From the NCBI GenBank assembly GCA_030765065.1, contig CM060975.1, positions 201,972,007 to 202,036,006 on the forward strand: 64,000 bases of DNA, given 5' to 3'. The translations under genes were made by a program, and so were the position numbers. The notes below the pieces were generated by a model. That model ran no database searches. It worked only from the letters and a program-made list of their open reading frames with translations, and had not been told where the DNA came from. Source of the DNA: Deroplatys truncata. Lineage: Eukaryota; Arthropoda; Insecta; Mantodea; Mantidae. Positions 1 to 60,332 of the stretch are shown piece after piece; position 1 is the first letter of the stretch, and every line of letters starts with the position of its first letter.

Positions 1-170
1 TTATGCTGTTCACAGACAGACACACAGACACACACACGGACATGTTTCCAAAAATGCTTTTTTTGGATTTAGGGGATCTCAAAACATGTATTTCCGGTGA
101 AATCTCGTTATCGAATTTTTGAGTGGAATACAATACTTCCCCTACTTACTATACGTAGTAGAGAAAGTAA
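1..170 (-). mobile_element. HINE-like element, 5' part, cut by window edge
   Basis: This is the 5' end of the dominant family in reverse orientation. It runs from the segment reading 'ttatgctgttcacag', through a short CA tract, to the terminal motif GTAGTAGAGAAAGTAA. It belongs to the young subfamily, with TACGTAGTAG at the hairpin loop. The rest lies outside the window. Confidence 0.85.
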
Positions 171-497
171 AAAAAACAACAAACACACACATAAACACAC
201 GTACATTACACTGCACTAAAGTAAACTCAGTTTGGGAAATTTTAAATATTTGAGAAGCAGCTAATGCTACAAAAAATCCTATCTGATACAGTCACAAAAC
301 TTACTCTACCCATTCCAAATTCGTATGCACCTTATATATTATATAATTAAAAAGTGATTTTTCTACGTTGCATTATTCTGAGTACAATTTCGCCCAGAAA
401 TGATTTCAAATCAAGCAACCCGTACTTAGATACATACATTGTGCAGAAGCAACGTTTAAATGCTTTTTGGAACTCGGAGGAATAAATTCTGTACCCG
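171..497. other. AT-rich interval, nothing recognised
   Basis: No coding signal or repeat that I can match elsewhere in the window. Confidence 0.5.
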
Positions 498-720
498 TCC
501 ATGTGGTGTGGGGTAGCGAGTCTACCTCACATTTAAGAGGTCCCGAGTTCGAATCTCGGTTAGATGAGTAATCTGTATAAGACTTTTTCACGGGTTTTTC
601 CCTTATCATGAGAAGACTTACATATTTCGGGTAACTCTAAGCTCTAGGGTCCATTTGAGGATCATTTCAACCAGTTCGTTTATTCACCTTCCGATGTGAC
701 CTACCGGGTAATCATCAAAG
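498..720 (+). repeat. tRNA-derived SINE-like copy (type D)
   Basis: A tRNA-like head with a box-A-like stretch (gtggggtagcgagtctac) and a good box B (GAGTTCGAATCTC) is followed by a non-tRNA body containing 'cacgggtttttccc'. That phrase resembles the body of the type A SINEs here. The boundaries are approximate and I see no target duplication. The box spacing fits a pol III promoter of a SINE head, but the sequence does not close into a tRNA cloverleaf. Confidence 0.55.
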
Positions 721-1187
721 CACTATATTCAAAAGTCATAGTAACGAGGTGTTACGAAAGGAATAATAATAAAAAATTAATAAAATCGGAAACTTTGAGC
801 ATCTTCCGTCAGTTAATGCAATTATAGTCGTAGAAAAGCATACAGTATGGAATACTTCGAAAAAAGAATCTATGATACAAGTTATATATTGGTTATGATA
901 TCTTAATTTTTCTGCAGTAAGTTTCTATCACTTATGGCTTAATAGTTATATAAAATTCAATCAGAATGAAGGGTATTAGCAGAACACTCAAGATAATACA
1001 TTTTATTCTTGTGTCAGTATGGGTATATGTGTAACATCTATCATTTTAATCAAAAGAGTTAGAGACGTTTTTCAAAAAATACAAATTAAGGTCTATTTTC
1101 TCAAGAGTAGGGTAGTTTTAGGTATGGGGACTTTCGTGTAAATCCTCGTCTCACATCCTTGGTAAATGCTGGACATAGGCATATACT
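721..1187. other. AT-rich interval, nothing recognised
   Basis: Unique-looking AT-rich sequence with many stops in all frames. Confidence 0.5.
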
Positions 1188-1372
1188 AAAGGTTGATATT
1201 TATCTGGTTTTTTGAGTTATGCTCTTCCCGAGGACGTCTTCCTAAAATGCTATTTTAAATTTTAAATTAACCTCAACGTGCATTTTCGAAGAAATCTTGA
1301 TTTCGAATTTTAGAGTGAAATTTTATACTTTTTCCATTTAGCCTAGATACGTGGAAGTGAGCAGAAACGGAA
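1188..1372 (-). mobile_element. HINE-like element, old diverged 5' fragment
   Basis: It aligns to the family from 'tttttgagttatgct', through the region reading 'gaaatcttgatttcgaatttt', to a decayed hairpin end (tagatacgtggaagtgagcag). The CA microsatellite is reduced to nothing. It is more diverged than the copy at 1-170. Confidence 0.6.
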
Positions 1373-1589
1373 GAAAGAAAAAAAGGTTTAAAATTTCATT
1401 TGTGAAATTAACTCATTCAATATATGCTCCATTAGGCCCTTTCCGGGTTTGAAACACTATCCAAACAGAAAATGTTCTCAATTCCCTTCTAAAACAGCAT
1501 AATAAACCAAATTTGAACTGCTGTCTTAAAGTGAGACAGAACGAAGTTTCTCATGAGATGTAATGATTAATAATAATACAATACTTCAT

Positions 1590-1690
1590 TGCTGTGAGAA
1601 AATGGCGGATGGTGAAGCTTGCCTCTCCGCGCTTCGCGGCCAACCATTAACTTCTTCTACCGGAAGTTGTCAATTACACCTGACCTGAAA
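1590..1690 (+). promoter_or_regulatory. Candidate promoter-like motif cluster (speculative)
   Basis: Three signals fall within 70 bp. AAAATGGCGGAT (1600-1611) resembles the YY1/Pho consensus AAnATGGCGG. There is a perfect 5-bp GC palindrome, CCGCG-ctt-CGCGG, at about 1627-1639. ACCGGAAGT (about 1659-1667) matches the ETS consensus. The ATG at 1602 opens a 28-codon frame ending in TGA. The patch is more GC-rich than its surroundings. I infer a possible transcription start or a remnant of one. No downstream gene is recognisable, so confidence is low. Confidence 0.25.
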
Positions 1691-4122: not shown

Positions 4123-4943
4123 TTGATGTGCTACATTAACATGACTTTCTCTACCCTTTATCGCTTATTAATGGTTATACAAATTATTCTTACGAAAGTA
4201 TATTTTCCTATCTACTTAATTTTAATCGAGAGTAACCTTTCTGGAAATACTATATTATACATTACGTTATAGATACAAAGGGAAAGCGATAGTCAAATGT
4301 TTTAGAACTGGACGCTATACGCTGGACTTAGAATTCCATACTCTTTCCATGATATCGCGAGAAAAAGCTGAAAAAGAACAAGACTTTGAACAACTCGAAC
4401 CATTACGAGAACAGTTATCTCGGAAATGGCTGATGCCACAGAAAAGTTATTTGAAATAAATTGCGCTTTTTAAAGGGAGCTACATTTTTTGTGTAGTGCG
4501 TTTTCATCCACCGCTTAACGTTTACCAGTTATGCAAGATTATATAAATTTCCTTCTGAATGAAGAGGATTTCACAAGCTAATCAGAGAAAATTCAAGGTA
4601 TACATTTTATTTGTCATGCAAATATATTTATTATATGGTATGTTTATCGAATCCATTACGTCATTTTTCAGAAAATCAAAAAATTCGAAAAATCTTCCAT
4701 GTAAAGGATAGTTTGGGGTGGGGATTTTCTTGAAAATATTTATGTCGTATCTTTGGAAGGCACTGAACTTGAATACCAAGTTTGGTAGTTATCCAAAATT
4801 TCGTTTTGAGTTATGCTGTTCACAGACACACACAGAGAGACTACATGCCTCGAAACCTGTATTTTCGGTGAAATCTTAGTATTAAATTTTTTTATGGAGT
4901 GCAATACCTTCTCTACCTACTGTGTATGTGGTAGAGAAAGTAA
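4123..4943 (-). mobile_element. HINE-like element, old subfamily, near full length
   Basis: It begins with the reverse of the 3' hairpin region (attgatgtgctacattaacatgac) and ends at GTGGTAGAGAAAGTAA. The terminal hairpin stem is CTACC/GGTAG at its apex, where the young subfamily has CTACT/AGTAG, so pairing is kept. A CACACACAGAGAGA microsatellite remnant is at about 4828-4841. No target duplication flanks it. Confidence 0.8.
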
Positions 4944-5705: not shown

Positions 5706-5740
5706 AGAGTAAGAAGAATAAATATCGACCACTGAATATA

Positions 5741-6285
5741 AAAAGCATTTTTAGAAAGAAAAGTCCATGTTTTAGCAGTATAACTCAATACGGAAATTCG
5801 GATAAATACCAAACTTGACATTTAACTTCGTCTTTTAAAGTTGTGACACGAAGATTTTCAATAAAACTACTTTACATGGAACACCTTTCGTCATTTAGTT
5901 TCTCAAAAATGCACGTAGCACCGTTATTAAAATACAGTATGTTTAATATATTTGCATGACAAATAGGATGTGTATTTTGTATTTTCTGATAATAGAGCCT
6001 CCTCTTCATTCTGCATGAATTTTGTGTTTTTGAACAACTGGTAAACCTTAAGAGACAGAAAAAAAAGGACTTACTACAAAAAACACATAGATTAGATGTC
6101 GTTAAAGCACACATTTTATTTCAAGGTTTTTATGACATTTGCCTTTTTTCGAGATATTCGTTGTTATTGGTTTGAATTTTTTAAATACTTTATACCGCTT
6201 TTGAGGTACTAAGTCGCAAATAGGTGGGAAGAGTGGAATTTGAATGCCAGCATTTAGAGAACCTCTTTTTAAAGATTTGACACTC
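5741..6285 (+). mobile_element. HINE-like element, old internal fragment
   Basis: It matches the family from the segment after the CA tract ('agcagtataactcaatacgg', 'aaataccaaacttgacattta') through 'ttacatggaacacctttcg' to 'aaagatttgacactc'. Both termini are lost. Frames open in it are shadows. Confidence 0.65.
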
Positions 6286-7708
6286 ACTTCGACCTCGTGT
6301 GTTCCCCAGGGAAATGAGTAAGTTAACAATTTCTCTAAATATTTATCCTAATCACAGATTTTTACCAAGATATATTCTATATCATTATTTATTAATTGAA
6401 ACCAAAATAAATAAATAAGATCTATTTAATTATTAACGTAAAGTAGACAAATAAATATTTGTAAAATTAGTGAGTAGAAGAGATTTTTAAAGAAGCGGTA
6501 GTGAGTAGAGGAAGTGAAATTAATGTAGCACATTAGATTGTTGTTATAGCTACGAGTTACAAAAATGTTGACTGAATATGTTTAAATGCATGACTAAATA
6601 TCTTGGATTTTCTGTAAGTGAAGTACCCATATTTGATTGATTTTTATGTCATTTTGTATAAATAAAACCCATAATAAATGCACAAAAAGTTATTGCAGGA
6701 GAATGCAATATACAATTTGATCACACTTTTTCGTAGCGTTAGCTGTTTTCGAAGTATCCCATGTTGCAAGTGTTTTACTTTTCCCAAGCGAGTGCGTCAT
6801 TTAACAGACATGCTTGAATTTGTGGTTTCCCTCTTTCTTTCTTCCATTATGAGAGCTTGTTACCAGCTTGTTGAAAGCTATTTCTGCGTGTTATAAGCTG
6901 TCAACTTAGCTCTTTTTACTTAATTGGAAATCATTCCTTAGTAAAAAGATATATAACGTAGGGAACGCAACGAGAATACATGAATACTATAATACACACG
7001 ATTAAATGTGAATTTGTCATTGGTAGAGAAACTCGTGTGACTATATCTCACGTTTTTGCTCTGTCAGCTCTTTTCTTTACTTAGCCCTACAAATCTAATT
7101 TTGGTTCACTGTATTTGCATCTCTGAATCTTTGTACTGTTGTCCATGACAAGCTTTCATACAGCATCGGTAGTGCTACTGTTTTATAGCATTTTAGTATA
7201 TGTATAATAATACTTTTAATCATAATAATATAACAATATAAACGCATTTTATCAATTTTAGTTGCTCCTCAGATCTCGACGAAGCTATAAATCCCAAATC
7301 CCATTTTAAAATGTTGTTTGTGTATGTGTCCTTGTCTGCTTTTCATGCAAGAATGGCCAATCCGATTTTGATTACGTATTATATACCTTATCCACTTAGA
7401 AAAGAGGCTATATGTTATTTTAATTGTTTTCCCTCAAAGGGTGGGCCCTAATGAGGCGCAAAATAAAAACAAATCGAAATATCTCGCTTATTATTTATTT
7501 TTTTAACAATGCCGCATAAAAATGTATAAGGATAATAATGCTTTTGATATGTTTTTACTTACAATATTCCTATACGATGGATATTTAAGAAGCTATACTA
7601 ATTTGCGAATGTGAACTGGTTTCCTCGAGAGGCAATATACATAGTTCCGTTAGCAGAACAGATCTTTTACTTATGTTCTAACCTTTATCATTTATTTTTA
7701 AGACCACG
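6286..7708. other. Long AT-rich interval, no gene recognised
   Basis: No domain-like open frame, SINE head or known terminal repeat was found. The frame at 6678-6896 has no recognisable motif. Confidence 0.5.
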
Positions 7709-8794: not shown

Positions 8795-8795
8795 A

Positions 8796-8822: not shown

Positions 8823-8826
<4 letters not shown>

Positions 8827-9725: not shown

Positions 9726-10514
9726 CTCCTAAATTGGAAAGAAAAAATTGTATAAACACAAACGTTCATATTTAAGTCACACTTTTCAAGGATGTAAAGC
9801 GAATTTTTAAACAATCTCCTCTTCCCCTAAAAAAATAATAGTGTTTAACGCCTGCTCTGACTTCATACGGCACTACAGGCGATGACATTGTTGATAAATT
9901 AAATCGAAAATGAAATTTTGGAAGGAAACGTTCCAGGACTAAAAGTTTAGGGTACCTCCCCGGCATTTGCCAGTAATGAGGACTGAGAAAAAATCTCAAA
10001 CAAAGCTTGTCACAGAAAAATCTGTTACTTTCTTGCTTCAAAATGTCTCAAATATTTTAATTATTGTGAAATCACAAAATGCTCTGAATTTATCCGCTTA
10101 CAAACCACAAAATAACTGAATAAGCATCGTCGCTTAATTATCTGGGAAGCTATGTTTGTAACTGAGAAGAATACATAAATACGAAAATAAAACTGTAGAT
10201 CTAGAATACGGTATGTCGAGCATTAAAAGAGAAAGCACTTAAAGAAACGCAGTTATAAAGTGTTAGTCGTACCACAATTGCTTTTAAGAAAAGTAGGATA
10301 CACAAATGTTCTCAACCTCATCGAACGTATCCAACAACAAACACAATTGGTACGAACACTTAGGTAATTGTATGAGTAGTAGCAGACTTCCGCGCAAACT
10401 ACGAGATTATCGACAAACTGGTAGAAGACATTTAGGAAGACCGATAACAATTTGGATTGATTACATCCAGACGAAACACACAACTTACCTAATCCGTGGA
10501 GCTGAAGAAGAATA
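9726..10514. other. AT-rich interval, no gene recognised
   Basis: The minus-strand frame at 9772-10041 and the overlapping frames near 10253-10561 have no recognisable motif. Confidence 0.5.
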
Positions 10515-11476
10515 AAAATCTGATGTGTTACATTCACATGACTTTCGTTACTCTTGTACAAACTATTTTTACAAACTCTTATTCTCCATCTATTTCATAT
10601 TAATCGAGATAAACATTTGCAGAAACGATCTTTTGACATGCAAATAGAATTACATTTTACACATAGGGACCAGTTCTAAAAATATTTGACTATCGCTTAA
10701 GGCGTACTATGTTCCCCTTGTTTTGTAATTGCAAGGGCAATATAGAAATACAGTAGTCTTTAAGCATCGACATATCTCTTAATAGCTGGTTGCTAGGTGC
10801 AGCACCATTCTCTTTGCCACAGATTAATACTCTTTGCATATCCAAGACAAAAAAAAAAAAATAATAATAACGAATTCCCATTTGAGAAAATAAGTATTGA
10901 AAAATTTAAGAGAATAACAAGCAATATCTCGAAAATGATTCACTCAACAAAAAAATGTATATGACATCAATTGTGTATTTTAACGCGATCTACATTTTTT
11001 GTGTAGTAAAATTCTGTCTATCTCTTATGGTTTACCAGTTATGCAAAAGTCGTTCACAATGAAGAATACTTTTGGAGACATTCCCAGAAAATTCAAGATA
11101 TAATTTTATTTGTCTTGAAAATATCTTAAACATATGATATTTTAATCAAAATCATTACAGTCATTTTTGAGAAACTTAAAATTTTCGAAAAATGTTCCAT
11201 GTAAAGGGTAATCTGGGGTGGGGGGGATTTTCTTGAAAACCTTCGTGTCGCATCTCTGGAAGATACTGAACCTAAATACCAAGTTTGGTGTTTATCCGAC
11301 TGTTCGTTTCTGAGTTATGCTGTTCACCGACACACACACGGACATGTTTCCAAAAATGCTTTTTTTTTTTGGATTCAGGGGGTCTCAAAACATATATTTC
11401 CGGTGAAATCTCGGTATCGAATTTTTGGGTGGAATACAATACTTCCCCTACTTACTATACGTAGTAGAGAAAGTAA
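10515..11476 (-). mobile_element. HINE-like element, young full-length copy (left arm of inverted pair)
   Basis: It is complete from the reverse of the 3' end (AAAAATCTGATGTGTTACAT) to the reverse of the 5' end (GTAGTAGAGAAAGTAAAAA). The sub-terminal repeat ACTTTC(G/T)-TACT, the 3' hairpin and the 5' hairpin are all visible. The CA tract is short (about 11331-11338). The flanks are 'gaagaagaat' and 'aaatatctctg', with no target duplication beyond shared A residues. Its 5' end faces the copy at 11521 across 44 bp. Confidence 0.9.
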
Positions 11477-11520: not shown

Positions 11521-12420
11521 TTACTTTCTCTACTACGTATAGTAAGTAGGGGAAGTATTGCATTCCACCCAAAAATTCGATACCGAGATTTCACCGGAAA
11601 TACATGTTTTGAGACCTCCTGAATCCAAAAAAAGCATTTTTGGAAACATGTCCGTGTGTGTGTCTGTGTGTGTGTGTGTGTGTGTGTCCGTGTGTGTGTC
11701 TGTGTGTGTGTCTGTGTGTCTGTGAACAGCATAACTCAAAAACGAACAGTCGGATAAACACTAAACTTGGTATTTAGGTTCAGTATCTTCCAGAGATGCG
11801 ACACGAAGGTTTTCAAGAAAATCCCCCCACCCCAGACTATCCTTTACATGGAAGATTTTTCGAAAATTTTAATTTTCTCAAAAATGGCTCTAACGATTTT
11901 GATGAAAATATCATATGTTTAAGATAATGTCATGAGAAATGAAATGTATATCTCGAATTTTCTGGGAATGTCTCCAAAAGTATTCTTCACTGTGAACGAC
12001 TTTTGCATAACTGGTAAACCATAAGAGATAGACAAAATTTTACTACACAAAAAATGTAGATCGCATTAAAATACACAACTTATGTCATATACATTTCTTT
12101 TGTTGAGTGAACCGTTTTTGAGATATTGCTTGTTATATCCTTAAATTTTCCAATACTTATACTTTTTCTCAAAGTCATTATTCATTTTTTATGTCCTGGA
12201 CATGCAAAGAGAATGGAATGCGCCACATAGCAACCAGCGTTAAAATATTTGACTATCGCTTAAAAGCTACCATATTCCCCTTGCATCTACAAGAAAATTA
12301 CCAATAAGATTGACATCTCGATATCTCGATTAACATGAAGCATATGGAGAATAGGCGTTTGTAAAAATAGATTGTACAAGAGTAGAGAAAGTCATGTGAG
12401 TGTAACACATCAGATTTTTT
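11521..12420 (+). mobile_element. HINE-like element, young full-length copy (right arm of inverted pair)
   Basis: It is complete from TTACTTTCTCTACTACG to CACATCAGATTTTTT. The 5' stem is TACTTTCTCTACT / AGTAGGGGAAGTA with a 10-nt loop and two G-T positions. The microsatellite at 11653-11719 is long and alternates TG runs with TCTG and TCCG. Open frames rich in Thr-His on the complement are products of this microsatellite. Confidence 0.92.
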
Positions 12421-15706: not shown

Positions 15707-16649
15707 TTACTTTCTCTACTACGTATAGTAAGTAGGGGAAGTATTGTATTCCACCCAAAAATTCGATACCGAGATTTCACCGAAAATATGTTTTGAGACC
15801 CCCTAATCAAAAAAAAACATTTTTGGAAACACGTCCGTGTGTGTGTCTGTGAACAGCATAACTCACAAACGAAAAACACCAAACTTGGTATTTAGCTTCA
15901 GTATCTTCCAGAGATGCGACACGAAGATTTTCAAGAAAATCCCCCCACTCCAGATTACCCTTTACATGGAACATTTTTCGAAAATTTCAATTTTCTCAAA
16001 AATGGCTCTAACGATTTTGATTAAAATATCATATGTTCAAGATATTTTCACGACAAAATGTATATCTTGAATTTTCTGGGAATGTCTCCTAAAGTATTCT
16101 TCATTGTGAACGACTTCTGCATAACTGGTAAACCATAAGAGATAGACAAAATTTTAATACACAAAAAATGTAGATCGCATTAAAATACACAATTGATGTC
16201 ATATACATTTTTTTTTTTTTTGTTGAGTGAACCATTTTCGAGATATTGCTTGTTATTCCCTTAAATTTTTCAATACTTATTTTCTCAAATGGGAATTCGT
16301 TATTAATTTTTTTTGTCTTGGATATGCAAAGAGTATTAATCTATGGCAAAGAGAATGGTGCTGCACCTAGCAACTAGCTATTAAGATATATGTCGATGCT
16401 TAAAGGCTATTGTATTTCTATACCCTTGCAATTACAAAACAAGGGGAACATAGTACGCCTTAAGCGATAGTCAAATATTTTTAGAACTGGTCGCTATGTG
16501 TAAAATGTAATTCTCTTTGCATGTCAAAAGATCGTTTCTACAAATGTTTATCTCGATTAATATGAAATAGATGGAGAATAAGAGTTTGTAAAAATAGTTT
16601 GTACACGAGTAGAGAAAGTCATGTGAGTGTAACACATCAGATTTTTTTT
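15707..16649 (+). mobile_element. HINE-like element, young full-length copy
   Basis: It runs from TTACTTTCTCTACTACG to CACATCAGATTTTTTTT with the intact 5' hairpin, sub-terminal repeats and 3' hairpin. The TG tract is short. The flanks (tgtcctta / gattggat) share no target duplication. Confidence 0.92.
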
Positions 16650-22631: not shown

Positions 22632-23457
22632 TTACTTTCTCTACTTCATACTTATAGTAAGTAGAGGAAGTATTGTATTCCATTAAAATTTTTGATACAT
22701 TTCACAGGAAATACATGTTTTGAGGCCACCTGAATCCAGAAAAGGAGAATTTTTAGAAAAAGGTCTTTATATGTGTCTGTGAACAGCATACTTAAAAAAG
22801 AAATGTTGGTTAAATACCCAACTTGGTATTTAAGTTCAGCAACTTCCAAGGATGTGACGAAGATTTTCAAAAAAAAAAATGCTAGCACCCCAAACTCCCC
22901 TTACATGGAAAGTTTTCGAGAATGTTGATTTTTATAAAAAATGGTTCCAACATATTGACTAATATACTATACTAATATGACAAATGAAATGTATATCTTG
23001 AAGTTTTTGTGGTACAACCTGTGAAGTCTTCTTTATCCTGAATGACTTTTGATAACTGGTAAACTGTTAGAGATAGGGCAAAATCTTACAACAAAAATAT
23101 AGATCTCGTTAAAGCACACAATTTATTTCAAATAAAGCTTTTTGTAGCATTAAACATTTCCGAGATATTCTTTGTTATTGATTTGAATTTCCAAATATTT
23201 AAACGTTTCGCAAGAGGAAAATTGGTATTCGTTTTCTTCTCTTGGCATGCAAAGAGAACGGAACTTCAAAGTGACTCGCTCTTAGAGCCTACTGTAATTC
23301 CTTGGTCCCCTTGTACCTACAAGGAATTATGGAATAAGAGAATTTCTGCAAATGTTTATCTCAATTAACATCGTGTAGAGGCAGAAGAATACGCTTTTGT
23401 AAGAATAATTCGTTGAAAAATGTATAGAGAAAGTAATGTGAATGTAACACCTTTTTT
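22632..23457 (+). mobile_element. HINE-like element nested inside another copy
   Basis: It begins TTACTTTCTCTACTTC with a hairpin whose stem has one mismatch (TACTTTCTCTACT / AGTAGAGGAAGTA). It ends 'aagtaatgtgaatgtaacac' plus T-run. It lacks a good TG tract ('tatatgtgtctgtg'). The 22652-22888 frame is a shadow. Confidence 0.8.
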
Positions 23458-23653
23458 CGTGTTCATGGAAAATAGAACAGGATTTTAAAGCCATTACATA
23501 GCGACCAGCTTTGAAAAGATGACTATCGCTGTAGTTTATCGTATTCTTGAAATGCCTACAAGGACCATATAAGTAGATGAAAGAATAAAACGTTGTGAGA
23601 ATAGTGTACAAAAGAGTAGAAAAGTTATGTGAATGCAACACATCACAGTTTTA
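23458..23653 (+). mobile_element. HINE-like element, 3' part of the split host copy
   Basis: It contains 'gattttaaagccattac', 'gaccagctttgaaaagatg' and the 3' end 'ttatgtgaatgcaacacatc'. It continues the host copy at 22162-22631. Confidence 0.7.
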
Positions 23654-27540: not shown

Positions 27541-27633
27541 TGTTTTAGTTAAAATATCTGAGATAAGTACGGTTTTATTATATAAATGGTACATTTCTGG
27601 TAAAAGATGCTATCTTCAACCGATGTTTAAAAA

Positions 27634-28387: not shown

Positions 28388-28392
28388 ACAAA

Positions 28393-29990: not shown

Positions 29991-29991
29991 G

Positions 29992-30667: not shown

Positions 30668-30699
30668 TTGATGTTTTACAGTCTTATCACCTTGTTTAT

Positions 30700-30862: not shown

Positions 30863-31019
30863 GTATTAACACCGTGTAGCTAAGGAGGGTGTTTATAAAC
30901 TGCAAATTATTTCTGCATGAAAGAATACAGTTTTGAAGATACGAGGCGTTATAATTTTTTAAAAATAATAACATTATTTTTCAAATAATTTGTTATTATT
31001 CATTACCTTATACCTTACA

Positions 31020-38520: not shown

Positions 38521-39410
38521 TCCTCTGTAGAGGATTTGCTGTATATATCCTGTCCGATTTAAGCATTCCTTATCTATTTTTTTTCATTACTTTCCCTCCC
38601 CTGACAGTTGATTTATGTTTACTTGTCTGTTTTATTCAAAGCCCAGGTACCTTTATCTAAACGTTGTGGAAGTTCTGGATGCTTTTTGAAAATCTGCATC
38701 TGAAATGAAAGTATTTTGGATATAAACACGAGCCCTCAACAGTTACAAAATCCATTTCTAGTTAGCATAAGAAAATCTTACTGAACCACGAACATGAAGG
38801 TATACTTGCTGGTAAGAAAATCTCTGGAGAACTGGATAACAAGCTTGTGGTTAACTCATCTGGGTTGAGTGGTAGCTGGTTTTACAAATGCTCTATTTCA
38901 CATGACGTAATTCACCAGGGGTTGAACGCACTCATTTCCTTAAGAAATAGAGTTGTTTATTTAAGATTCCAAGAGAATTGCCTTGCTGTTAGTGAAAATC
39001 CTCGTCGTTCTTAATACACCTAAGCTGCTAGGGAACAATCACACTAATTGATATTCTGTCATAAAAATGGAGGAGGACGGAGTGTCTTACGTAAGTAATT
39101 GCAGTAAACCAATCCTGTGGTTGTCTATCCTTCTAGTTAAGGAGCATATACCTTTATGATCACTTCCTGCATAAAAAGCAATTTAATCATGTAATTGGAC
39201 TCCTGATAGGGGGCGAGAAAATGAGGGTTGGGGACAAGCAAATTATCCGCCGCCCTATCTCCTGAGTTTGTCCCTAGAGGTTCCATTCCTGGCACTTTCT
39301 CAATACACACAAACGTACGCATTCTCTGCAACTTGTGGACCTCGATCCCCTTTAGGGCCGCGAAGGCATAAATCAACCGACAAAAGTATACTGTTGAGGT
39401 TTATCATAAA
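38521..39410. other. Interval with no gene recognised
   Basis: The first part may be decayed LINE sequence upstream of RNase H. The remainder is unassigned. Confidence 0.45.
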
Positions 39411-39632
39411 AAATCTGATGTGTTACACTCACATGACTTTCTCTACTCTTGTACAAGCTATTTTTACAAACGTTTATTCTCCATATGCTTCATGTTAATC
39501 GAGATGTTAATCTTATTGCCAATTTTCTTGTAGATGCAAGGGGAATATGGTAGGCTATAAGCGATAGTCAAATATTTTAAGCGCTGGTTGCTATGTGGCG
39601 CATGCCATTCTCTTTGCATGTCCAGGACATAA
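39411..39632 (-). mobile_element. HINE-like element, 3' part of a host copy split by a nested copy
   Basis: It runs from AAATCTGATGTGTTACACTC to 'gtccaggacat' plus A-run. It stops exactly in the A8 tract where the inner copy begins. The host resumes at 40507. Confidence 0.88.
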
Positions 39633-40505
39633 AAAAAATCTGATGTGTTACACTCACATGACTTTCTCTACTCTTGTACAATCTAATTTTACAAACGCCT
39701 ATTCTCCATATGCTTCATGTTAATCGAGATATCGAGATGTCAATCTTATTGGTAATTTTCTTGAGATGCAAGGGAAATATGGTAGCTTTTAAGCGATAGT
39801 CAAATATTTTAACGCTGGTTGCTATGTGGCGCATTCCATTCTCTTTGCATGTCCAGGACATAAAAAAAATGAATAACGAATTTGAGAAAAAGTATAAGTA
39901 TTGGAAAATTTAAGGGAATAACAAGCAATATCTCGAAAACGGTTCACTCAACAAAAGAAATGTATATGACATAAGTTGTGTATTTTAACGCGATCTACAT
40001 TTTTTGCGTAGTAAAATTTTGTCTCTCTCTTATGGTTTACCAGTTATGTAAAAGTCGTTCACAATGAAGAATACTTTTAGAGACATTCCCAGAAAATTCG
40101 AGATATACATTTCATTTCTCATGACATTATCCTAAACATATGATATTTCCATCAAAATCGTTAGAGCCATTTTTGAGAAAATTAAAATTTTCGAAAAATG
40201 TTCCATGTAAAGGGTAGTCTGGGGTGGGGGGATTTTCTTGAAAACCTTCGTGTCGCATCTCTGGAAGATACTGAACCTAAATGCCAAGTTTGGTGTTTAT
40301 CCGACTGTTCGTTTTTGAGTTATGCTGTTCACAGACACACAGACACACACACACACACAGACACACACACGGACATGTTTCCAAAAATGCTTTTTTTGGA
40401 TTCAGGAGGTCTCAAAACATGTATTTCCGGTGAAATCTCGGTATCGAATTTTTGGGTGGAATGCAATACTTCCCCTACTTACTATACGTAGTAGAGAAAG
40501 TAAAA
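39633..40505 (-). mobile_element. HINE-like element, young full-length copy nested in another copy
   Basis: It runs from A-run TCTGATGTGTTACACTC to GTAGTAGAGAAAGTA plus A-run. The inner copy itself carries the uninterrupted target sequence at 39862-39880 ('taaaaaaaatgaataacg'), so the insertion point is seen directly. The CA tract is at about 40334-40370. Confidence 0.92.
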
Positions 40506-40506
40506 A

Positions 40507-40975
40507 TGAATTACGAATTTGAGAAAAAGTATAAGTATTGGAAAATTTAAGGGAATAACAAGCAATATCTCGAAAACGATTCACTCAACGAACAAATGTA
40601 TATACCATAAATTGTGTATTTTAACGCGATCTACATTTTTTGTGTAGTAAAAGTTTGTCTATCTCTTATGATTTACCAATTATGCAAAAGTCGTTCACAA
40701 TGAAGAATACTTTTGTAGACATTCCCAGAAAATTCGAGATATACATTTCATTTCTCATGACAATATCTTAAACATATGATATTGTAATCAAAATCGTTAG
40801 AGCCATTTTTGAGAAAATTAAAATTTTCGAAAAATGTTCCATGTAAAGGGTAGTCTGGGGTAGGGGGATTTTCTTGAAAACCTTCGTGTCGCATCTCTGG
40901 AAGATACTGAACCTAAATACCAAGTTTGGTGTTTACCCGACTGTTCGTTTCTGAGTTACATGTGCTGTTCACACA

Positions 40976-41009
<34 letters not shown>

Positions 41010-41125
41010 CATGTTTCCAAAAATGCTTATTTTTGGATTCAGGAGGTCTCAAAACATGTATTTCATGTGAAATCTCGGTATCGAATTTTTGGGTGGAATA
41101 CAATACTTCCCCTACTTACTAAACG
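40507..41125 (-). mobile_element. HINE-like element, 5' part of the split host copy
   Basis: It begins 'tgaattacgaatttgag', exactly where 39632 left off, and ends AAACGTAGTAGAGAAAGTAA. The CA tract is expanded at 40976-41006. Confidence 0.88.
40976..41006. repeat. (CA)n microsatellite inside HINE-like element
   Basis: About fifteen CA units. Confidence 0.9.
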
Positions 41126-41964
41126 TAGTAGAGAAAGTAAAAAAAGGGCGCAGAATTATCTTTAGTTTGCAATTTAACACTGGAAGCAATTTGTAAACTC
41201 CGCTGCCTATTGCAAATATGATACTTAAATAAAAAAAAAACGCAGTTATGCGCAGGATAGCTTTCCGACACCTCTCCAGATTGTGTGAATGGCTTCTTCC
41301 TCTGTGAAATTGCCACAATTATCCAACTAGCTTTTCACATGCTTCTCGTGGCTTTTGGGAAATGAAATTAACCAATGAACAGATATCTTGGAAATAAGAA
41401 GCAGCGTAGTTTGTTGCAATTGGATGTAAATGCGCTGACTCAGTATGAGGCTTACGTTATAGAGATGTGGGTGAAAGATGTGTTAACTTATTTGGCTAAA
41501 CCCATTACACCTTTTTCAATACTTTGGAAGGTGGTAGAAACACAATGCAACTAAAATGGGTTTTGAGCATTTCAATACCAGTTGCACAGAATATCTGCCA
41601 GACTTTTTGTTCGCATTTGTACACAGCACATGTAGCAGAGGTCACCTTCATATTTTTCTTTGTACACATAAACATTATGTTCTAGAGACATATTTCCACA
41701 GGAAACGGCACATTGCGCTAGATTGTTATTCAGATCTAAACGTTTTCTGATACAGAAAACCATCTAGGATATTTAAATCCCTCAGGAGTTTTGGCGTTTA
41801 ATCTTCTTAACCTCTTATTAATAATTTTGCTGCTAAAACATTGTGGTAGAATATTTTTTTATGGAAAGGATAATAGAGTGATTTATTTGGCCGTTCAACT
41901 GCAAATTTAAAATCTATCTGTCTATAACATCCTGTATATACATATACTCACACACAGAATGTTA
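41126..41964. other. Interval with no gene recognised
   Basis: Unassigned sequence. Frames at 41556-41763 on both strands are motif-free. Confidence 0.5.
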
Positions 41965-43375: not shown

Positions 43376-43383
43376 GATGAACA

Positions 43384-43532
43384 CTTCGAAAACACTTATG
43401 TAAAGTGTAGTTTGCAGTCGGGGGATTTTTTTGAAAATCTTTTGTGCCGCATCTTTGGAAGATGGTGAACTTAAATACCAAGTTTAGTATTTATCCGACT
43501 TTTCGTTTTTGAATTATGCTGTTCATACACTG

Positions 43533-43583: not shown

Positions 43584-43600
43584 ACATATGGACGTTTTTA
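43384..43600 (-). mobile_element. HINE-like element, left part of a host split by an oppositely oriented copy
   Basis: 'cggggggatttttttgaa'-type sequence, 'aaataccaagtttagtattt' and 'gaattatgctgttcatac' are followed by a 48-nt CT tract in place of the usual CA tract, then 'catatggacgttttta'. The host resumes at 44173. Confidence 0.7.
43533..43580. repeat. (CT)n microsatellite replacing the CA tract of an HINE-like copy
   Basis: Twenty-four CT units at the position where sister copies have CA. Confidence 0.9.
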
Positions 43601-44172
43601 TTTTCTCTACTACGTATAGTAAGTAGGGGAAGCATTGCATTTCACCCAAAAATTCGATACGAGATTTCACCGGAAATACATGTTTTGAGGCCCCTGAATC
43701 CAAAAAAAGTATTTCTGGAAACGTGTCCGTGTGTGTTTGTGTGTGTGTCTGGTAAACCATAAGAGATAGACAAAATTTTACTACACACAAAATGTAGATC
43801 GCGTTAAAATACACAATTTATGTCATATACATCTTTTTTTTGTTGAGTAAACCATTTCCGAGATATTGCTTGTTATTCCCTTAAATTTTCCAATACTTTA
43901 TACTTTTTTTTCAAATGGGAATTCGTTATTCATTTTTATTTTGTCCTGGTAATGCAAAGAGAATGGAATACTCCACATAGCAACCAGCGCTTAAAATAGT
44001 TGACTATCGCTTAAAGTCTACCAATTCCCCTTGCATCTACAAGAAAATTAGCAATAAGATTAACATCTCGATATCTCGATTAACATGAAGCATATGGAGA
44101 ATAAGCGTTTGTAAAAATAGTTTGTACAAGAGTAGAGAGAAAGTAATGTGAGTGTAACACATCAGATTTTTT
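43601..44172 (+). mobile_element. HINE-like element, internally deleted, nested
   Basis: It runs from TTTTCTCTACTACGTATAG to CACATCAGATTTTTT. About 300 bp between the TG tract and 'ggtaaaccataagagatag' is missing (junction near 43752). The 3' region contains 'gagtagagagaaagtaatg', a small GA insertion in the sub-terminal repeat. Confidence 0.85.
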
Positions 44173-44750: not shown

Positions 44751-44757
44751 GAGACTA

Positions 44758-48199: not shown

Positions 48200-48967
48200 G
48201 TCCACGGGTGTACATAGTAGGTGGAGAAGGTATTGCATTCCACCCAAAAATTCGTTACCGAGATTACAAGGGAAATGCATGCCTTGAGGCCCTCTGAATC
48301 CAAAACAATCGTTTTTAGAAAAAATGTCCGTGTGCGTATGTGTCTGCAAGCAGCATAACTCAAAAGCGAAATGTAGGATAAATACCAAACTTGGTATATG
48401 AGTTCAGTACCTTCCTAAGATGCGACAGGAAGATTTTTAAGAAAATCCCCCACACCAAAACTACGCTTTACATTGAACGTTTTTCCAATTTTTTGATTTT
48501 CTGAAAATAGCTGTAACGATTTTGATTAAAACGTCATATATTAAATATATTTACATGAAAAATAAAACGTACATTTTGAATTTTCTGCGACTAACATCTG
48601 AAGTCATCTTCATTCAGAAGGAATCTTGTATAATCTTGTATAACTTGTAAGCGTTAAGCGATAATCGAAAATGCACTACACGAAGGATGTGGATCTCAAA
48701 ACACATAATTTATTTCAAACAACTTTTTTGTGGCATTTCTTAGATATCCGTCATTAATAGTCTGAATTGTTCAATGCTAGTTCTTAAACATTTGATTATC
48801 TCTATTCCCTTTGTATCTATAACGAAATGTGTAATGCAACTAGTTCCGGATATGTTTGGATAAAAATGAAGTAGAATAGGAAAACATTCCGTAAGAACAA
48901 TTAGTATACCCACTAATAAGCGATAAAGGGTAGAGAAAGTAATGAGAATATAACACATCAGATTTTT
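48200..48967 (+). mobile_element. HINE-like element, old subfamily, near complete
   Basis: The 5' hairpin is degraded ('gtccacgggtgtacatag'), then 'ggagaaggtattgcattcca' onward. It ends 'agaatataacacatcagatt'. The 3' sub-terminal repeat GGGTAGAGAAAGT is present. It is directly followed by another copy. Confidence 0.8.
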
Positions 48968-49698
48968 AGAAAAAGGCCTGTGGGTATGCTGTGAACAGCG
49001 TAACTCAAAAACGAAAAGTTGGTTAAATACCAATCGTACTATTTAAGTTCATTATCTTCCAAAGATGCAACACGAAGATTTTCAAGAAAATCCTCCCACC
49101 CCAAACTATCCTTTACATGGAAAAGTTTTCGAAAATTTCTATTTCCTCGAAAATGGCTCTAGCTATTTTGATAAAAATAACATAATTAAGTTATAGATAT
49201 TTTTATGCCAAATTAAATGTACGTATGTCTTGAATTTTTTGGGAATAGCCTGTGAAATCCTCTTCATTCTGAGTGACTTCTGCATAACTGTAAACCCTAG
49301 TAGATAGACAAAATCTTAATCTTACCACATAAAAAATATTGTCTTGTTAAAGCACACATTTATATTAGATTTTTTTAGTTAACCATTTCCAAGATATTCC
49401 TTATTTTTATTTTGTATTTTAAAATACTTTTCACGAATGGGAACTCATTTTTCTTTATTTCTCTTCTTGGTTATGCAAAGACTAAGGAATTTTAAAGCCA
49501 ATACCACCAATCCGCTCTTAAAAGATTTGACTATGGCTTAAAGCCTACTGTATTCCCCTAATCTCGTTATACCTACACGGAAATATGCAGAAAATAATTC
49601 CTGCTAATGTTTATCTTGATTAATATAAGTATTTAGAAGAAACGTTTGTACAAGAGAGGGTAGAGAAAGTTATGTGAGTGTAACGCATGAGATTTTTT
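48968..49698 (+). mobile_element. HINE-like element, old subfamily, 5'-truncated
   Basis: It starts after the 5' end at 'aaaaaggcctgtgggtatgc' and ends 'gttatgtgagtgtaacgcat' plus GAGATTTTTT. It is in tandem with the preceding copy. Confidence 0.8.
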
Positions 49699-49751: not shown

Positions 49752-50490
49752 AACTTTCTCTAACTACCAGGTGCTAACAGTTAAAGAAGGTATTGTATTC
49801 CACCCAAAAATTCGATATCAAAATCGGAAATGAATAAAAATACATTTGTATAAAACGGCCTGTGTTTGTGTATATGTGTATGTGAACAGAATAACTCAAA
49901 AACCAAAATTCGGTTAAACACTAAACTTGGTATTTAAGTTTAGTATCTTCCAAAGATGCGACACGAAGTTTTTCAAGAAAATTTCCCATCCCCAAACTAC
50001 CTGTTACATAATTTTTTTTTAAATTTTTAATTTTCTCAAAATTGGCTCTAACGATTTTTATTAAATTATCACAAGTTAAAGAGATTCGTATGGAAAAATA
50101 AAATGTTTATCTTGAACTTTCTAGTAATATTTGTGAAGTCCGCTTCATTAAAAAAAAATAGTGTAACGTTAGGAGATAGACTGAAAAGTAGTGCACAAAA
50201 CATGTAGATTCTTTAAAATGCACAACTTCATATTTCAAATAACGTTTTTAGTGGCATCAGCCATTTCCGAGATATTCTGTTAATATTGGCTTCAATAGTT
50301 CAGTACTTCGTAATTATTTTAAAGTCGCTATTCATTTGTTTCTTGCGATGTCATGGAAAGAGTATGGACTTTTAAAGCCAGTCATTGCGGGCCGCTTTGA
50401 AACATCTGACTAGCCCAATGAAGCATATCTGTAAATGTTTATCTCGTTCTATGAAACCGATAGAAAAATAAGCTTGCGTAACGCAATTTT
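49752..50490 (+). mobile_element. HINE-like element, old variant with altered hairpin
   Basis: It starts 'taactttctctaactaccag'. The hairpin apex is CTAAC/GTTA, unlike other copies but still paired. It loses similarity near 'gcttgcgtaacgcaatttt', without a clear 3' hairpin. Confidence 0.7.
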
Positions 50491-51854: not shown

Positions 51855-52585
51855 AAAAATCTGATGTGTTGAATTCACATGGCTTTTTCTACATACTATC
51901 GTTTATTTTATATAGCTTCTACAAACTATTCTAAAGAAAGTTTATTTTTCTACTTCATGCTAATCGAGATAAATCTTTATAGAAATACTTTCATTACACG
52001 TTTTGTTTTGAAGGTACAAGGGGAGCAGAGGAAAGTGAATCGATGATCAGATGTTTAATGTAGGATCGCTATACTCTGCCCTAGAAATTCCGCACTCTTT
52101 CTGTGACAACACCAGAAACAACCGAAAAGCGACAGCGCTTTAAAAAAATTCAAGTATTGAAAATTCAAAATAATAACGGGTACCTCGGAAATTGCTGATT
52201 TCGCAAAAAAGGTATAGGAAATAAATTGCTATACAGAGATCTTAATGTTTTGTGTATTAGTTTTTCGTCAATCTCTTATGGTTTGCCAGTTACACAAAGT
52301 TCCTTCCGAATGAAGAGGTTATCACAGGCTATTCCCAGAAAATTCTAGACATGCATTTTATTTGCCATTTAATATCTTAAACGCATGGTAACATAAATAG
52401 CAAGTTCGGGATTTATCGGACATTTCGTTTTAGAGTTATGATCACAGACAATCACACACTTTTTCTTAAAATGTTTTTTTTTTTATTCGGGGGCTTCGAA
52501 CAAGTATTTCTGGTGAAATCGCCATATCGAATATTTGGGTGGAATGTGGTACCTTCTCTACCTAAAGTACGTGGTAGAGGAAGTA
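51855..52585 (-). mobile_element. HINE-like element, old subfamily, full length
   Basis: It runs from AAAAATCTGATGTGTTGAATTC to GTGGTAGAGGAAGTAAC. The 3' hairpin is ATGTG-aattcaa-CACAT and the 5' hairpin apex is CTACC/GGTAG. The CA tract is nearly lost ('cacagacaatcacacac'). A SINE B inserted 8 bp beyond its end. Confidence 0.85.
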
Positions 52586-52592
52586 ACAATAC

Positions 52593-56834: not shown

Positions 56835-56849
56835 TAAGGATTAATCCTA

Positions 56850-57291
56850 TATAAAGATTATTATCAATCTTGCAGCTCTGTTCGGGTTATTGCGTTATAT
56901 GCGGAAATTATTATTTCTCTCACTTTTTTTCCTTACTTCTGTCATCTTCTAGACCTCACCTCTCCAACGCTCCCTTTTTACTACCCCTTTCTCACTGTTG
57001 ACTCTTCCTTCATCGCCTCTCTAATGCTGCCTGTGCAACATAGATCTTTGCGATGTTTCGAGAATCAATAATAAAAGTATTTGTTCTGGGTGTTAATAAG
57101 ATTAAAATACAAATAAAGGGTTTAACAGTGCGAACGGAGATATGCTGTTTCACGCGGCTATCGGTTTAGTAGATACACAAATGCAATTTGTACAACTTCT
57201 TAAATGTTTATCTTATTGAAATTCTATGGGTTAACAAAACTAGTGAAAATTATATGCGTATAAACTTTTATGCATTACTTTTTACTTTCCC
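56850..57291. other. Interval with no gene recognised
   Basis: Pyrimidine-rich near 56910-57020. Otherwise unassigned. Confidence 0.5.
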
Positions 57292-57720
57292 TACTAGTTG
57301 TATTTAATAAATAGAGGAAGTATTTGCATTTCACCCAAAATTTCGATACCAAGATTTCACCGGATATACGCGTTTTGTGACTTCCAAATAAAATTAATTA
57401 GAAAATGGTACGTTTGTGTTTGTGAGCAGCATAACTCAAAAACAAAACGTCAGTTAAATACCAAATTTGGTATTTAAACTTAGCATCTTCCAAGGATGCG
57501 ACACGAAGATTTTCAAGAAAATCACCCCATCCCAAACTACCCTTTACATGCAACATTTTTCGAAAATTTATTTTCTAAAAAATAGCTCTAATGATTTTGT
57601 TTAAAATACCCCGTGTGTAAGATATTTTCAAGATGAAATGTAGATCTTGAATGTTATGGGAATAGTCTCTGAAGTCCTTTTCATTCTGAATGACTTTTGC
57701 ATAATTGCTAAACTGTAAAG
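57292..57720 (+). mobile_element. HINE-like element, 5' half
   Basis: It starts 'ttactttccctactagttg' with a paired second arm 'ataaatagaggaagtatt'. It continues to 'gcataattgctaaactgtaa' and stops. The TG tract is reduced to 'gtttgtgtttgtg'. Confidence 0.75.
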
Positions 57721-58228
57721 CACGATCAAACCTTTTTTTTTCAATTCAAGGGTTTACATAAAAAATTGTTAAATCTTTTCAACATTTGACAAGATTGGAC
57801 AACACGAGACAAGAACTGGCAAGGCTTGACAATGCGATAAATGTGTATTCACACGTTGTCTCTTTGCCGAAGTTAACCTGTTCAGAACACATTGATAATT
57901 TATCATATGCATTGTAAATTACTATTAGCGCCACTATATAACAATTAGCAATGAAATATTGTTATCTACGTAATATTACATAGCACTTTCACGTATTATA
58001 GCCCAAGAAATCAGAATAGAATACAATGGAAATAATACGACTTGATAGATTAACTACATTGCATTAATGCATTACTGTACACCTCGGAAATCTGTCCGGT
58101 GATTTCTTCATATGCTCTTGTTTTCATCCTGTGGTAATCCACGAAGCCCACTACGTACGGACATGGCCAGCTTTCGTATAACCTAATCATCTTGCATATG
58201 ACATGCCTTGCCCAGATAGCCATTTTTG
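57721..58228. other. Interval with no gene recognised
   Basis: It contains a short imperfect repetition of 'ttgacaa/actggcaaggcttgacaa' near 57782-57830. Otherwise unassigned. Confidence 0.4.
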
Positions 58229-58358
58229 TTACTTTCTCTACTACGTACAGTAAGTAGGGGAAGTATTGTATTCCACCCAAAAATTCGATATCGGAATTTC
58301 ACCGGAAATACATGTTTTGAGACACCCTGAATCTAAAAAAAGCATTTTTGGAAATATC

Positions 58359-58402
<44 letters not shown>

Positions 58403-59158
58403 TGTCCGTGAACAGTATAACTCAGAAACGAACAGTCGGATAAACACCAAACTTGGTATTTAGGTTCAGTATCTTCCAGAGATGCGACATGAAGGTTTTT
58501 AAGAAAATCTCCCCACCCCAGATTACCCTTTACATGGAAAATTTTTCGAAAAGTTTAATTTTCTTAAAAATGGCTCTAACGATTTTGATTAAAATATCAT
58601 AGGTTTAAGATATTTTCATGACAAATAAAATGTATATCTTGAATTTTTTTGGGAATGTCTCCAAAAGTATTCTCCATTGTGAACGACTTTTGCATAACTG
58701 GTAAACCATAAGAGATAGACAAAAATTTTTACTACACAAAAAATGTAGATCGCGTTAAAATACACAATTTATGTCATATACATTTTTTTGTTGAGTGAAC
58801 CATTTTCGAGATATTGCTTGTTATTCCCTTAAATTTTTCAATACTTATTTTCTAAAATGGGAATTCGTTATTCATTTTTTTGTCTTGGATATGCAAAGAG
58901 TTATAATCTGTGGCAAAGGGAATGGTGCTGCACCTAGCAACCAGCTATTAAGAGATATGTATGTGCTTAAAGGCTACTGTTTTTCTATATTGCCCTTGTA
59001 AATATATTTTCCCCTTACATCTACAAGAAAATTGGCAATAAGATAGAGTCTGCAAATGTTTAACTCGATTAACATGAAGTAGATGGAGAATAAGCGTTTG
59101 TAAAAATAGTTTGTACAAGAGTAGAGAAAGTCATTTGAGTGTAACACATCAGATTATT
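58229..59158 (+). mobile_element. HINE-like element, young full-length copy
   Basis: It runs from TTACTTTCTCTACTACG to CACATCAGATTATTTT. The TG tract is expanded to about 39 nt at 58362-58400. The 5' hairpin is intact. Confidence 0.92.
58362..58400. repeat. (TG)n microsatellite inside HINE-like element
   Basis: About nineteen TG units. Confidence 0.95.
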
Positions 59159-59450
59159 TTACTTTTCGCTTTCAAACATGTTGCAGATTTCGTGATGCAT
59201 TGTAAACAGTCGCATTTCATTGGCCAAAGCCACCAAATCATTGTTGAGCGTTTGGGCGTGTCCTTATCTGCTTTCAAGGCTTCCAAAGACTTTAAAAATA
59301 CTGGAAGCAATTTGGCAAGAAAAGTTGTAAGTTGTGAGAACTCTTGGAAAGTCTTGTAAAGCATTGAATTTGACAAACATTTGATCGTGTACACGGAGCT
59401 TAAGAGAGAGAGAGAGAGGCAAAATCTTACTACACAAACAAAACAAAAAA

Positions 59451-60332
59451 ATTTCTGTCGTGTTACACTCACATGACTTTCTCTACTCTTGTACAAACTA
59501 TTTTTACCAACTCTTATTCTCCATATATTTCATATTAATCGAGATAAACATCTACATTTTAATCCAAATAAACCTTTGCAGAAATAGCTGCATTACACAT
59601 TTTGTTATAGATACAAAGGGAACAGCGATAGTCAAGTGTTTAAGAACTGGACGCTCTATACTGGACTTTAAATTCCATACTGTTTCCATGCAATTGAGAG
59701 AAACGATGTTGAAAAGACTTCAAGTAATGAACAATTCGAACCATTAATAATGGATATATCGGAAAGATCTATGACACAAAAAAGATATTTGAAATAAACT
59801 GTGTGTTTTAAAGAGATCTACATTTCTTATTGCAGTACGTTTTCTTCTATCACTTAACGATTACAAGTTATACAATATTATACAAAATTCCTTCTGAATG
59901 ATGTGGACTTCAAAGGCCATTCCAAGAGAATTCAAGATATACATTTGATTTTTTTATTTAAGTATCATTAATATACGGTATTTTAATCAAAATCCTTAAA
60001 GCCATTTTTTAGAAAATCAAAAATTTCAAAAATGTTCCATGTAAATGGTAGTTTGGGTGGAGGAATTTTTTTTAAAATCTTCGTGTCGCATCTTCAGAAG
60101 GTACTGAACCTAAAGCCAGGTTTAGTGTTTATCCCACTTTTCGCATTTGAGTTATGCTGACCAAAGACACACACACGGACCTGTTTCTAGAAATGCTTTT
60201 TTTTTTTTTTAACTTTTATTTTTTTTATTCAGGCAGTCTCAAAGCATGTATTTCCGGTGAAATCTCGGTATCGAACTTTTGGGTGGAATACAATACCTTC
60301 TCTACCTAATATGTGCGTAGTAGAGAAAGTAA
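59451..60332 (-). mobile_element. HINE-like element, mosaic of young and old subfamilies
   Basis: The first 100 bp (TTCTGTCGTGTTACACTCAC to 'cgagataaacatct') are young-type. From about 59550 ('acattttaatccaaataaac') it is old-type to the end GTAGTAGAGAAAGTAA. A part of the alignment is duplicated at the join. The 5' hairpin has an old-type second arm (GGTAGAGAAGG). Confidence 0.85.

Follow-up and report, generated by a model that had tools for sequence, protein, structure and literature searches.

What kind of element fills so much of this stretch of mantid DNA, and what moves it? The window, by which we mean the whole 64-kb stretch analysed here, had been proposed in a preliminary description to carry a dense HINE-type family occupying about a quarter of its length in about thirty copies or pieces. 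A profile HMM built from six full window copies gives 40 matches at E<1e-6, which cover 17,674 bases, i.e., 27.6% of the window, while coverage of the reversed window, used as a control, is 0.09%. The same matches lie on both strands, as had been claimed, and include 19 5' ends and 19 3' ends, which makes the original count a fair one. The copies and pieces are as follows:

1..170, minus strand: HINE 5' part with its 5' end at 170, truncated by the window edge
858..1357, minus strand: old HINE piece
4123..4943, minus strand: old HINE copy with both ends
5731..6542, plus strand: old HINE piece with 3' end
10514..11476, minus strand: full HINE copy with inverted internal segment, 3% from the plus-strand copy at 15707
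11521..12420, plus strand: full HINE copy, differing by 2% from that at 40503; 95% identity to the Helentron outer 5' end
15707..16647, plus strand: full HINE copy with inverted internal segment
22196..22505, plus strand: HINE piece
22632..23451, plus strand: older HINE copy with an 8-base flank match
23495..23652, plus strand: HINE 3' piece
27630..28387, minus strand: old HINE copy adjoining the 3' T-tail of the copy at 28390..29144
28390..29144, minus strand: old HINE copy
29988..30099, minus strand: HINE 3' piece
30129..30865, minus strand: two HINE 5' pieces (30129-30664 and 30702-30865)
35537..36447, plus strand: full HINE copy, 4% from the plus-strand copy at 58229
39633..40503, minus strand: full HINE copy nested in a T-run of the element at 39408..41140
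39408..41140, minus strand: host HINE copy, interrupted by the nested copy at 39633..40503 into model 2-641 and 638-901
43378..43532, minus strand: HINE piece
43598..44172, plus strand: HINE copy with internal deletion, both ends present
48214..48967, plus strand: old HINE copy with 3' end
48979..49698, plus strand: old HINE piece with 3' end
49753..50411, plus strand: old HINE piece with 5' end
51855..52586, minus strand: old HINE copy
57282..57720, plus strand: HINE 5' piece
58229..59159, plus strand: full HINE copy
59450..60332, minus strand: older HINE copy with both ends

The anatomy of these copies is that of the DINE-1/HINE elements described in the accessible parts of PMC4067079, namely a pair of subterminal inverted repeats, the 5' one of which holds a further, nested inverted repeat, together with a microsatellite and a 3' stem-loop, and the preliminary description had named each of these parts. 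The subterminal inverted repeats are TTACTTTCTCTACT and AGTAGAGAAAGT. With at most two mismatches TTACTTTCTCTACT occurs at 34 places in the window, a count made up of 5' ends and many inverted 3' partners (shuffle mean 0.77, maximum in shuffles 3), and GTAACACATCAGATTTTT, with at most three mismatches, at 15 against 0.24. According to the same source, such repeats measure 12-15 bp, the 3' one lies 38-60 bp from the end in mite families and the 3' palindrome 8-35 bp from it; in intact mantid copies the 3' 12-mer starts 39 nt from the end, and its inner edge is therefore closer to the end than in the mite families, while the palindrome ATGTG-n7-CACAT lies about 9 nt from the end. This palindrome is found at 11 places in the window, ten of which are HINE 3' ends, and nine of the 19 3' ends have CAGATTTTT without a mismatch. 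One correction to the preliminary description is that the T count varies at both ends. The GT microsatellite occupies about 134-214 of the model, and a few short HMM matches fall within this part.

The 5' hairpin, which has the nested form known from DINE-1, was recovered in all three folded copies (z -3.1 to -6.1), and in an alignment of 16 of the 19 5' ends (12 distinct rows) 92% of its cells are paired, compared with 45-63% in slid controls; covariation among these 16 ends is not above shuffles. The alignment leaves out the old 5' ends at 28387, 29144 and 30865, in which a good second hairpin arm is, by eye, seemingly absent. The 3' stem-loop folds weakly (z -0.3 to -2.4 in three copies), and two of the three copies fold no better than many shuffles. 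The window contains no Rfam match and no tRNA, and a Myb/SANT-like domain at 63143-63514 is the sole Pfam match above cut-off in the 26 of 87 filtered frames of at least 75 aa that were scanned. Exact scans gave no match for the HINE 5' 40-mer in viral contigs or for the HINE 3' end in bacterial and archaeal contigs, and in the available portions of literature text at least one of four terminal 12- to 15-mers occurs in 5 papers, whose titles do not concern transposons.

The absence of a consistent target duplication, also claimed at the outset, bore up under comparison with permutations: for 14 window copies the mean longest non-poly-T flank match is 1.07, against 1.14 in permutations, the exceptions being the plus-strand copy at 22632 (8 bases) and the minus-strand copy at 11476 (4 bases). 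For 12 genome copies, in a raw comparison, the longest flank match is 3 bases, and neither sample shows the reproducible duplication that would have spoken against a HINE-type family. Three autonomous copies lying inside a HINE provide empty sites (model 639/640 and 638/640) with T's alone at the join. Window copies, genome copies and nested empty sites all show insertion into T-runs without target duplication, in the manner of the DINE-1/HINE targets of variable T number reported in the same parts of PMC4067079. One internal T-run of earlier copies is a repeated insertion target, with 19,321 junctions.

A search of the genome for a Rep/helicase/endonuclease gene between ends of the same kind, proposed as a check in the preliminary description, succeeded. 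In the 4.29-Gb genome from which the window comes, intact Helentrons with long open reading frames form a small set. The one that was fully read (L031 and L032, G000:C4:193695001-193709000) is about 10.8 kb long and has HINE-type ends, 5' TTACTTTCTCTACTACGTATAGTAAGTAGGGGAAG and 3' GTAGAGAAAGTTATGTGAATGTAACACATCAGATTTT, around a frame of 2,441 codons that encodes, in this order, a herpes-tegument-like domain (Herpes_teg_N, 2.7e-11), followed by a charged tandem-repeat region, Rep (Helitron_like_N, 3.9e-28), PIF1 helicase (1.5e-28) and an endonuclease (Exo_endo_phos_2, 1.6e-6, barely above cut-off at 28.4 vs 27.4 bits). The frame contains the motifs PHEHM, YIIKY, GSAGVGKS, GDFN and SDHKP, and it unites Rep, PIF1 helicase and a C-terminal AP-type endonuclease in one protein, as in Helentrons. 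A putative catalytic Asp-x-His (DPH) is visible in the sequence. A phmmer search of the endonuclease domain against PDB returned a single match (E 0.4), and a model of this domain built without alignment was useless (pLDDT 35). No domain of a DDE transposase or of a reverse transcriptase is among the Pfam matches of the frame; either had been named beforehand as pointing to another kind of element. A match to PF14529, whose name is 'Endonuclease-reverse transcriptase', corresponds to the endonuclease part.

The same 3' end is present in all ten further Helentron copies, which were selected for long frames, and divergence in the Rep region across 10 loci is 0.08-2.40%. The inner of two 5' ends was considered as the true Helentron start and ruled out because the flank upstream of it is nearly identical in 8 of 10 copies. 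The HINE and the Helentron have about 680 nt of 5' end in common: the window copies at 40503 and 11521 match the outer Helentron 5' end at 91% and 95% identity, respectively, whereas the copy at 35537 is 84% identical to the outer end and 89% to the inner one. Exact 3' ends number 46 for the autonomous element and 116,226 for the HINE type, i.e., about 2,500 HINEs per autonomous copy and well over a hundred thousand HINEs in the genome.

With ends and T-run targets shared between the two and very little divergence among the autonomous copies, we take the window repeats to be HINEs, non-coding and non-autonomous Helentrons about 0.9 kb long, whose movement is most likely driven in trans by Helentrons resident in this genome (probability about 0.93). 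Other kinds of transposon fit far less well. A canonical Helitron family, with 5' TC and 3' CTRR and insertion between A and T, is very improbable: Rep proteins that belong to another lineage and score higher on PF14214 do occur in the genome (L001-L020), but the HINE ends are TTACTTTC and CAGATTTTT, no CTRR was seen by eye at any of the 19 3' ends, as the preliminary description had noted, the targets are T-runs, the copies have subterminal inverted repeats, and the autonomous partner carries a C-terminal endonuclease. That the repeats are MITEs or other TIR transposons moved by a DDE transposase can be virtually dismissed, since the right repeat is internal, target duplication is not reproducible and ends of the same kind flank a Rep/helicase gene, even though inverted repeats of 12-14 bp do lie near both ends.

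The identity of the driver is a closer question. HINE and Helentron subterminal repeats are identical over at least 11 bp, which places them in one family, and the last 60 nt are 72-75% identical (three copies), below the 80% that defines a subfamily in the available text of PMC4067079; the HINE thus belongs to another subfamily than the Helentron. It is doubtful, though a serious possibility, that HINE movement depends chiefly on another Helentron subfamily, which may be extinct, rather than on the copies found: apart from the 3' difference, HINE groups are 8-15% apart and older copies about 20% or more, compared with at most 2.4% for the autonomous Rep loci, and the direct partner of the HINE may be a relative that is lost or unread. 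Yet the subterminal repeat and stem-loop are common to both, and the youngest HINE type is 91-95% identical to the outer Helentron 5' end. Judged from sequence, mobilisation by exactly these Helentrons is likely.

Of 11 autonomous copies tested, 10 carry a HINE 5' half stacked ahead of their own 5' end; L021 appears, from its 5' type and HINE right flank, to be the one 'simple' copy. Stacks contain two to five 5' ends, and threefold stacks in L084, L088 and L090 have 200 nt of non-HINE flank on either side. The loci L089-L093 and L097-L101 were chosen for their stacked look and therefore yield no frequency; the random genome sample was drawn with small contigs left out and the lengths of C11 and C12 guessed. 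Stacked 3' ends and 3' halves also occur. Among the listed places, 29 of 100 5' junctions lie in runs and a further 12 of the 100 follow a second spacing, vs 18 of 73 3' junctions in runs, the latter being those of 100 listed 3' places that lie below 30.6 Mb. A one-way rule, from the outermost 5' end to the first 3' end, was dropped: stacking is no evidence for it because 3' ends stack as well. An origin of the stacked 5' ends by local tandem duplication or through assembly error is unlikely. Simple nests do exist, such as 41140-39408 with 40503-39633 in the window, and among listed places a partner was found for only 39 of 100 5' and 34 of 73 3' junctions; against this, the 34-mer of the compound junction is found 30 times, in 14 cases paired with the autonomous 3' end about 10 kb away, and flanks of the outer 5' ends differ from copy to copy. 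Units joining the outer 5' end of one nested element to the inner 3' end of another were also found between unrelated flanks.

The evidence supports the assignment to a known kind of element, with unusual composite forms. Within the accessible parts of PMC4067079, which report autonomous partners of HINEs from several species, DINE-1/INE-1 and other HINEs have the same anatomy and T-run targets and likewise outnumber their Helentron, whereas the mantid family differs in sequence, is amplified in a 4.29-Gb genome, and has 72-75% identity to its Helentron in the last 60 nt where some published pairs exceed 95%. The idea of composite rolling-circle units and of bypassed termination is shared with the tandem and composite Helitrons mentioned there, which are ascribed to missed termination; the recurrent T-run hot spot and the stacks of two to five 5' ends, seen in most autonomous copies tested, distinguish the mantid. 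The Helentrons with a VTD (herpes tegument-like deubiquitinase) domain in the available part of PMC9741609 also join it to Rep, a helicase and a C-terminal endonuclease within a single protein, to which the mantid Helentron adds charged tandem repeats and a stacked second 5' end. A link to tandem repeats is shared with the oyster HINEs, which carry satellite-like repeats (PMC7492417, in part); in the mantid, a 3.4-kb macrosatellite unit close to the beginning of contig C1 contains a full HINE. Lepidopteran Helitrons, on the portion of PMC4344730 at hand, have CTRR ends and are not the mantid HINE family.

Homology and the absence of duplication suggest rolling-circle transposition via a single-strand intermediate. 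The Helentron protein would nick the 5' terminus within a T-run, replication would displace a single strand up to the 3' terminator (subterminal repeat, stem-loop and CAGATTTT), and the copy would be joined into a T-run without target duplication. Nests probably move as units, because initiation and termination would choose loosely among stacked ends. We lean towards a further reading in which new elements are actively being born by nested insertion into a T-run hot spot that the elements themselves supply, through 5'-end takeover and early terminators. A Helentron that landed in a HINE may have captured the HINE 5' end and given rise to the prevailing autonomous form; HINEs landing inside that Helentron may have acted as early terminators, generating new multi-ended non-autonomous families. 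The rolling-circle machinery would be loose in its choice of ends, and nests, intermediates and mobile products would all be found in one genome.

Autonomous copies with Rep regions as little as 0.08% apart, hugely numerous HINEs and a ladder of nests and composites coexist in this one genome. Given its size, its apparent recency and its stacked multi-ended forms, the HINE family is well suited to understanding how such elements start, stop and multiply. If these readings are true, three questions would become testable within a single system: which end sequences initiate and terminate Helentron transposition, by what route non-autonomous families arise, and how far HINE/Helentron elements can swell a genome.

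The preliminary description placed a dense HINE family over about a quarter of the window, and this was confirmed: a profile built from six full copies gave 40 matches at E<1e-6, with 19 ends of each type (5' and 3') distributed over both strands, and covered 27.6% of the window (0.09% in the reversed-window control); the feature list of HINE parts omits some of the short matches. The 5' 14-mer with up to two mismatches is seen at 34 places versus a shuffle mean of 0.77, a tally of both 5' ends and numerous inverted 3' partners, and the 3' 18-mer at 15 versus 0.24. After masking of the 452 microsatellite columns (of 1,250), copies of the young groups diverge by 2-4% within a group (6-9% for two more members) and by 8-15% between groups, and the older copies are mostly at least 20% divergent; HINE thus came in several waves. 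In the copies at 10514-11476 and 15707-16647 an 86-bp internal segment lies in the opposite orientation to that in the copy at 11521 (77-79% identity). By eye, the frames at 37679-38583 (minus strand) and 33691-34009 (plus strand) resemble remnants of a non-LTR retroelement and a mariner-type transposase, respectively; Pfam gave nothing in those of these frames that were scanned. Other features of the window are as follows, the short repeats lying outside HINE matches and having 3-4 self-matches each.

63143-63514, minus strand, open frame with a Myb/SANT-like domain (Pfam PF13873, 5.7e-19)
2701-2790, short repeat
5479-5615, short repeat
13948-14084, short repeat
20684-20789, short repeat
42011-42123, short repeat
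44757-44878, short repeat
52686-52848, short repeat
56662-56817, short repeat

Intact HINE copies begin with TTACTTTCTCTACT-loop-AGTAGGGGAAGTA, followed by a GT-rich microsatellite and AT-rich blocks, and finish with AGTAGAGAAAGT-n-ATGTG-n7-CACAT-CAGATTTTT. The 5' hairpin folds well in all three copies tested; the 3' hairpin is weak when folded alone. An alignment of 16 of the 19 5' ends has 12 distinct rows, in which the 5' hairpin cells are 92% paired versus 45-63% when slid, and covariation in the same rows is not above shuffles; the excluded ends at 28387, 29144 and 30865 seem to be without a good second arm. The earlier claim that there is no consistent target duplication holds for the 14 two-ended copies, whose flanks are T-rich and share bases at chance level. 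Only one of the 14 (22632-23451) has flanks that share an 8-base match, which may reflect chance or an odd insertion. The HINE at 40503-39633, nested within that at 41140-39408 (both minus strand), lies in a T-run, and no base outside this run is duplicated.

Across the genome, the exact 5' 14-mer is found at 264,403 places (reversed pattern, 214), and all ten of its places in the window are 5' ends; the 34-place 3' pattern is found 116,226 times (reversed, 0). HINE makes up 9.97% of 20 random 2.5-kb stretches (bootstrap 95% range 3.0-18.6%; reversed, 0), seven of which contain any, and thus the window seems denser than average. Near the start of contig C1 (G000:C1:20,514-119,397), HINE 3' ends recur every ~3,409 bp as a macrosatellite, one fetched unit of which (L063) contains a full HINE at 2718-3558.

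A search of the 4.29-Gb, 818-contig genome with the rolling-circle replication domain Helitron_like_N (PF14214) gave at least 152 matches, a lower bound as 150 of 291 candidates were scored, and none in 14 control genomes; 18 open frames of at least 2,000 aa are among the matches listed. An element with ends of the same kind enclosing a Rep/helicase/endonuclease gene, as the preliminary description had proposed to seek, was found in the fully read Helentron L031+L032, which starts with the HINE 5' end and terminates with a HINE-type 3' end. The frame of this element has 2,441 codons, or 2,404 aa when counted from the first likely methionine, and encodes a herpes-tegument-like (VTD) domain, a charged tandem-repeat region, DUF6570, Rep, a PIF1 helicase and a C-terminal endonuclease, with motifs that we take to be typical of HUH Rep and AP-type endonuclease. 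VTD domains in Helentrons have already been published (PMC9741609). All ten additional copies, which were selected because their frames are long, have the same type of 3' end, and the autonomous 3' 34-mer occurs 46 times in the genome (reversed, 0). Rep regions of ten loci, five with frames of at least 2,000 aa, diverge by 0.08-2.40%, which points to very recent Helentron activity. Another PF14214 lineage, represented by loci L001-L020, scores higher, and most of its frames are short or broken.

The outer 680 nt at the Helentron 5' end are 91%, 95% and 84% identical to window copies E40503, A11521 and C35537, respectively, and the last 60 nt are 72-75% identical between HINE and Helentron. By the rule in PMC4067079 (family, at least 11 bp of identical subterminal repeats; subfamily, 80% over 60 bp), the two are classed on sequence as one family with separate subfamilies, and it is likely that HINE is mobilized in trans by these very Helentron copies.

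The internal T-run at model position ~640 is an insertion hot spot, with 19,321 5' and 13,580 3' junctions by pattern counts (reversed, 0), the ratio of which proves nothing because the two patterns are unequal in strictness. Of the 11 autonomous copies examined, 10 start with a HINE 5' half, and the Helentron's own 5' end lies ~640 model positions further on; flanks of the outer 5' ends differ from copy to copy, which suggests that the compound moves as one unit. Three autonomous copies lie within a HINE at model 639/640 | 638/640, joined by T's only; L021 looks like a Helentron within a complete HINE, and L049 on contig C8 has an extra HINE inserted behind the inner 5' end. Of the 30 places with the compound junction, 14 are paired with the autonomous 3' 34-mer ~10 kb on; one of the other 16 adjoins a listed Rep match, and five loci fetched for the remaining 15 (covering six) all consist of a 5' half, an inner 5' part and a full HINE. 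L084 and L088 have this form, and in L090 two 5' parts precede a full copy; all three are bordered on each side by non-HINE sequence and lack leftover 3' halves. L086 carries a run of five 5' ends; the window's own nest is simple, with a single 5' half and a single 3' half. Since mixed stacks (L091, L093, L101) and stacks of 3' halves (L097, L100) also exist, the choice of end looks loose rather than one-way. Locus L096 (G000:C1:13833000-13842999) holds a ~9.2-kb palindrome with arms 99.75% identical, HINE pieces in both and a central stretch of tandem repeats with a 76-bp step, which may be a real element or an assembly fold-back; inverted junction pairs are similarly arranged on C1 at 22.03 Mb and 26.12-26.13 Mb.

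All defining features that were tested, for HINEs as for Helentrons, are present, and a canonical Helitron is indeed the poorer fit, failing on ends and target. This kind of element is already known; the family had no match in the viral or bacterial/archaeal contigs or literature searched, Repbase/Dfam lying outside the comparison, and to our knowledge its scale and composite forms are unusual. Judging by homology and anatomy, the Rep/endonuclease protein would most likely nick the T-rich 5' terminus, after which the helicase would displace the strand until it halts at the 3' terminator and the copy is joined into a T-run. The composite structures suggest two further outcomes: a HINE inserted in a Helentron would provide a terminator ahead of the gene and could thereby found a shorter family, and copying of a Helentron inserted in a HINE could begin at the start of that HINE.
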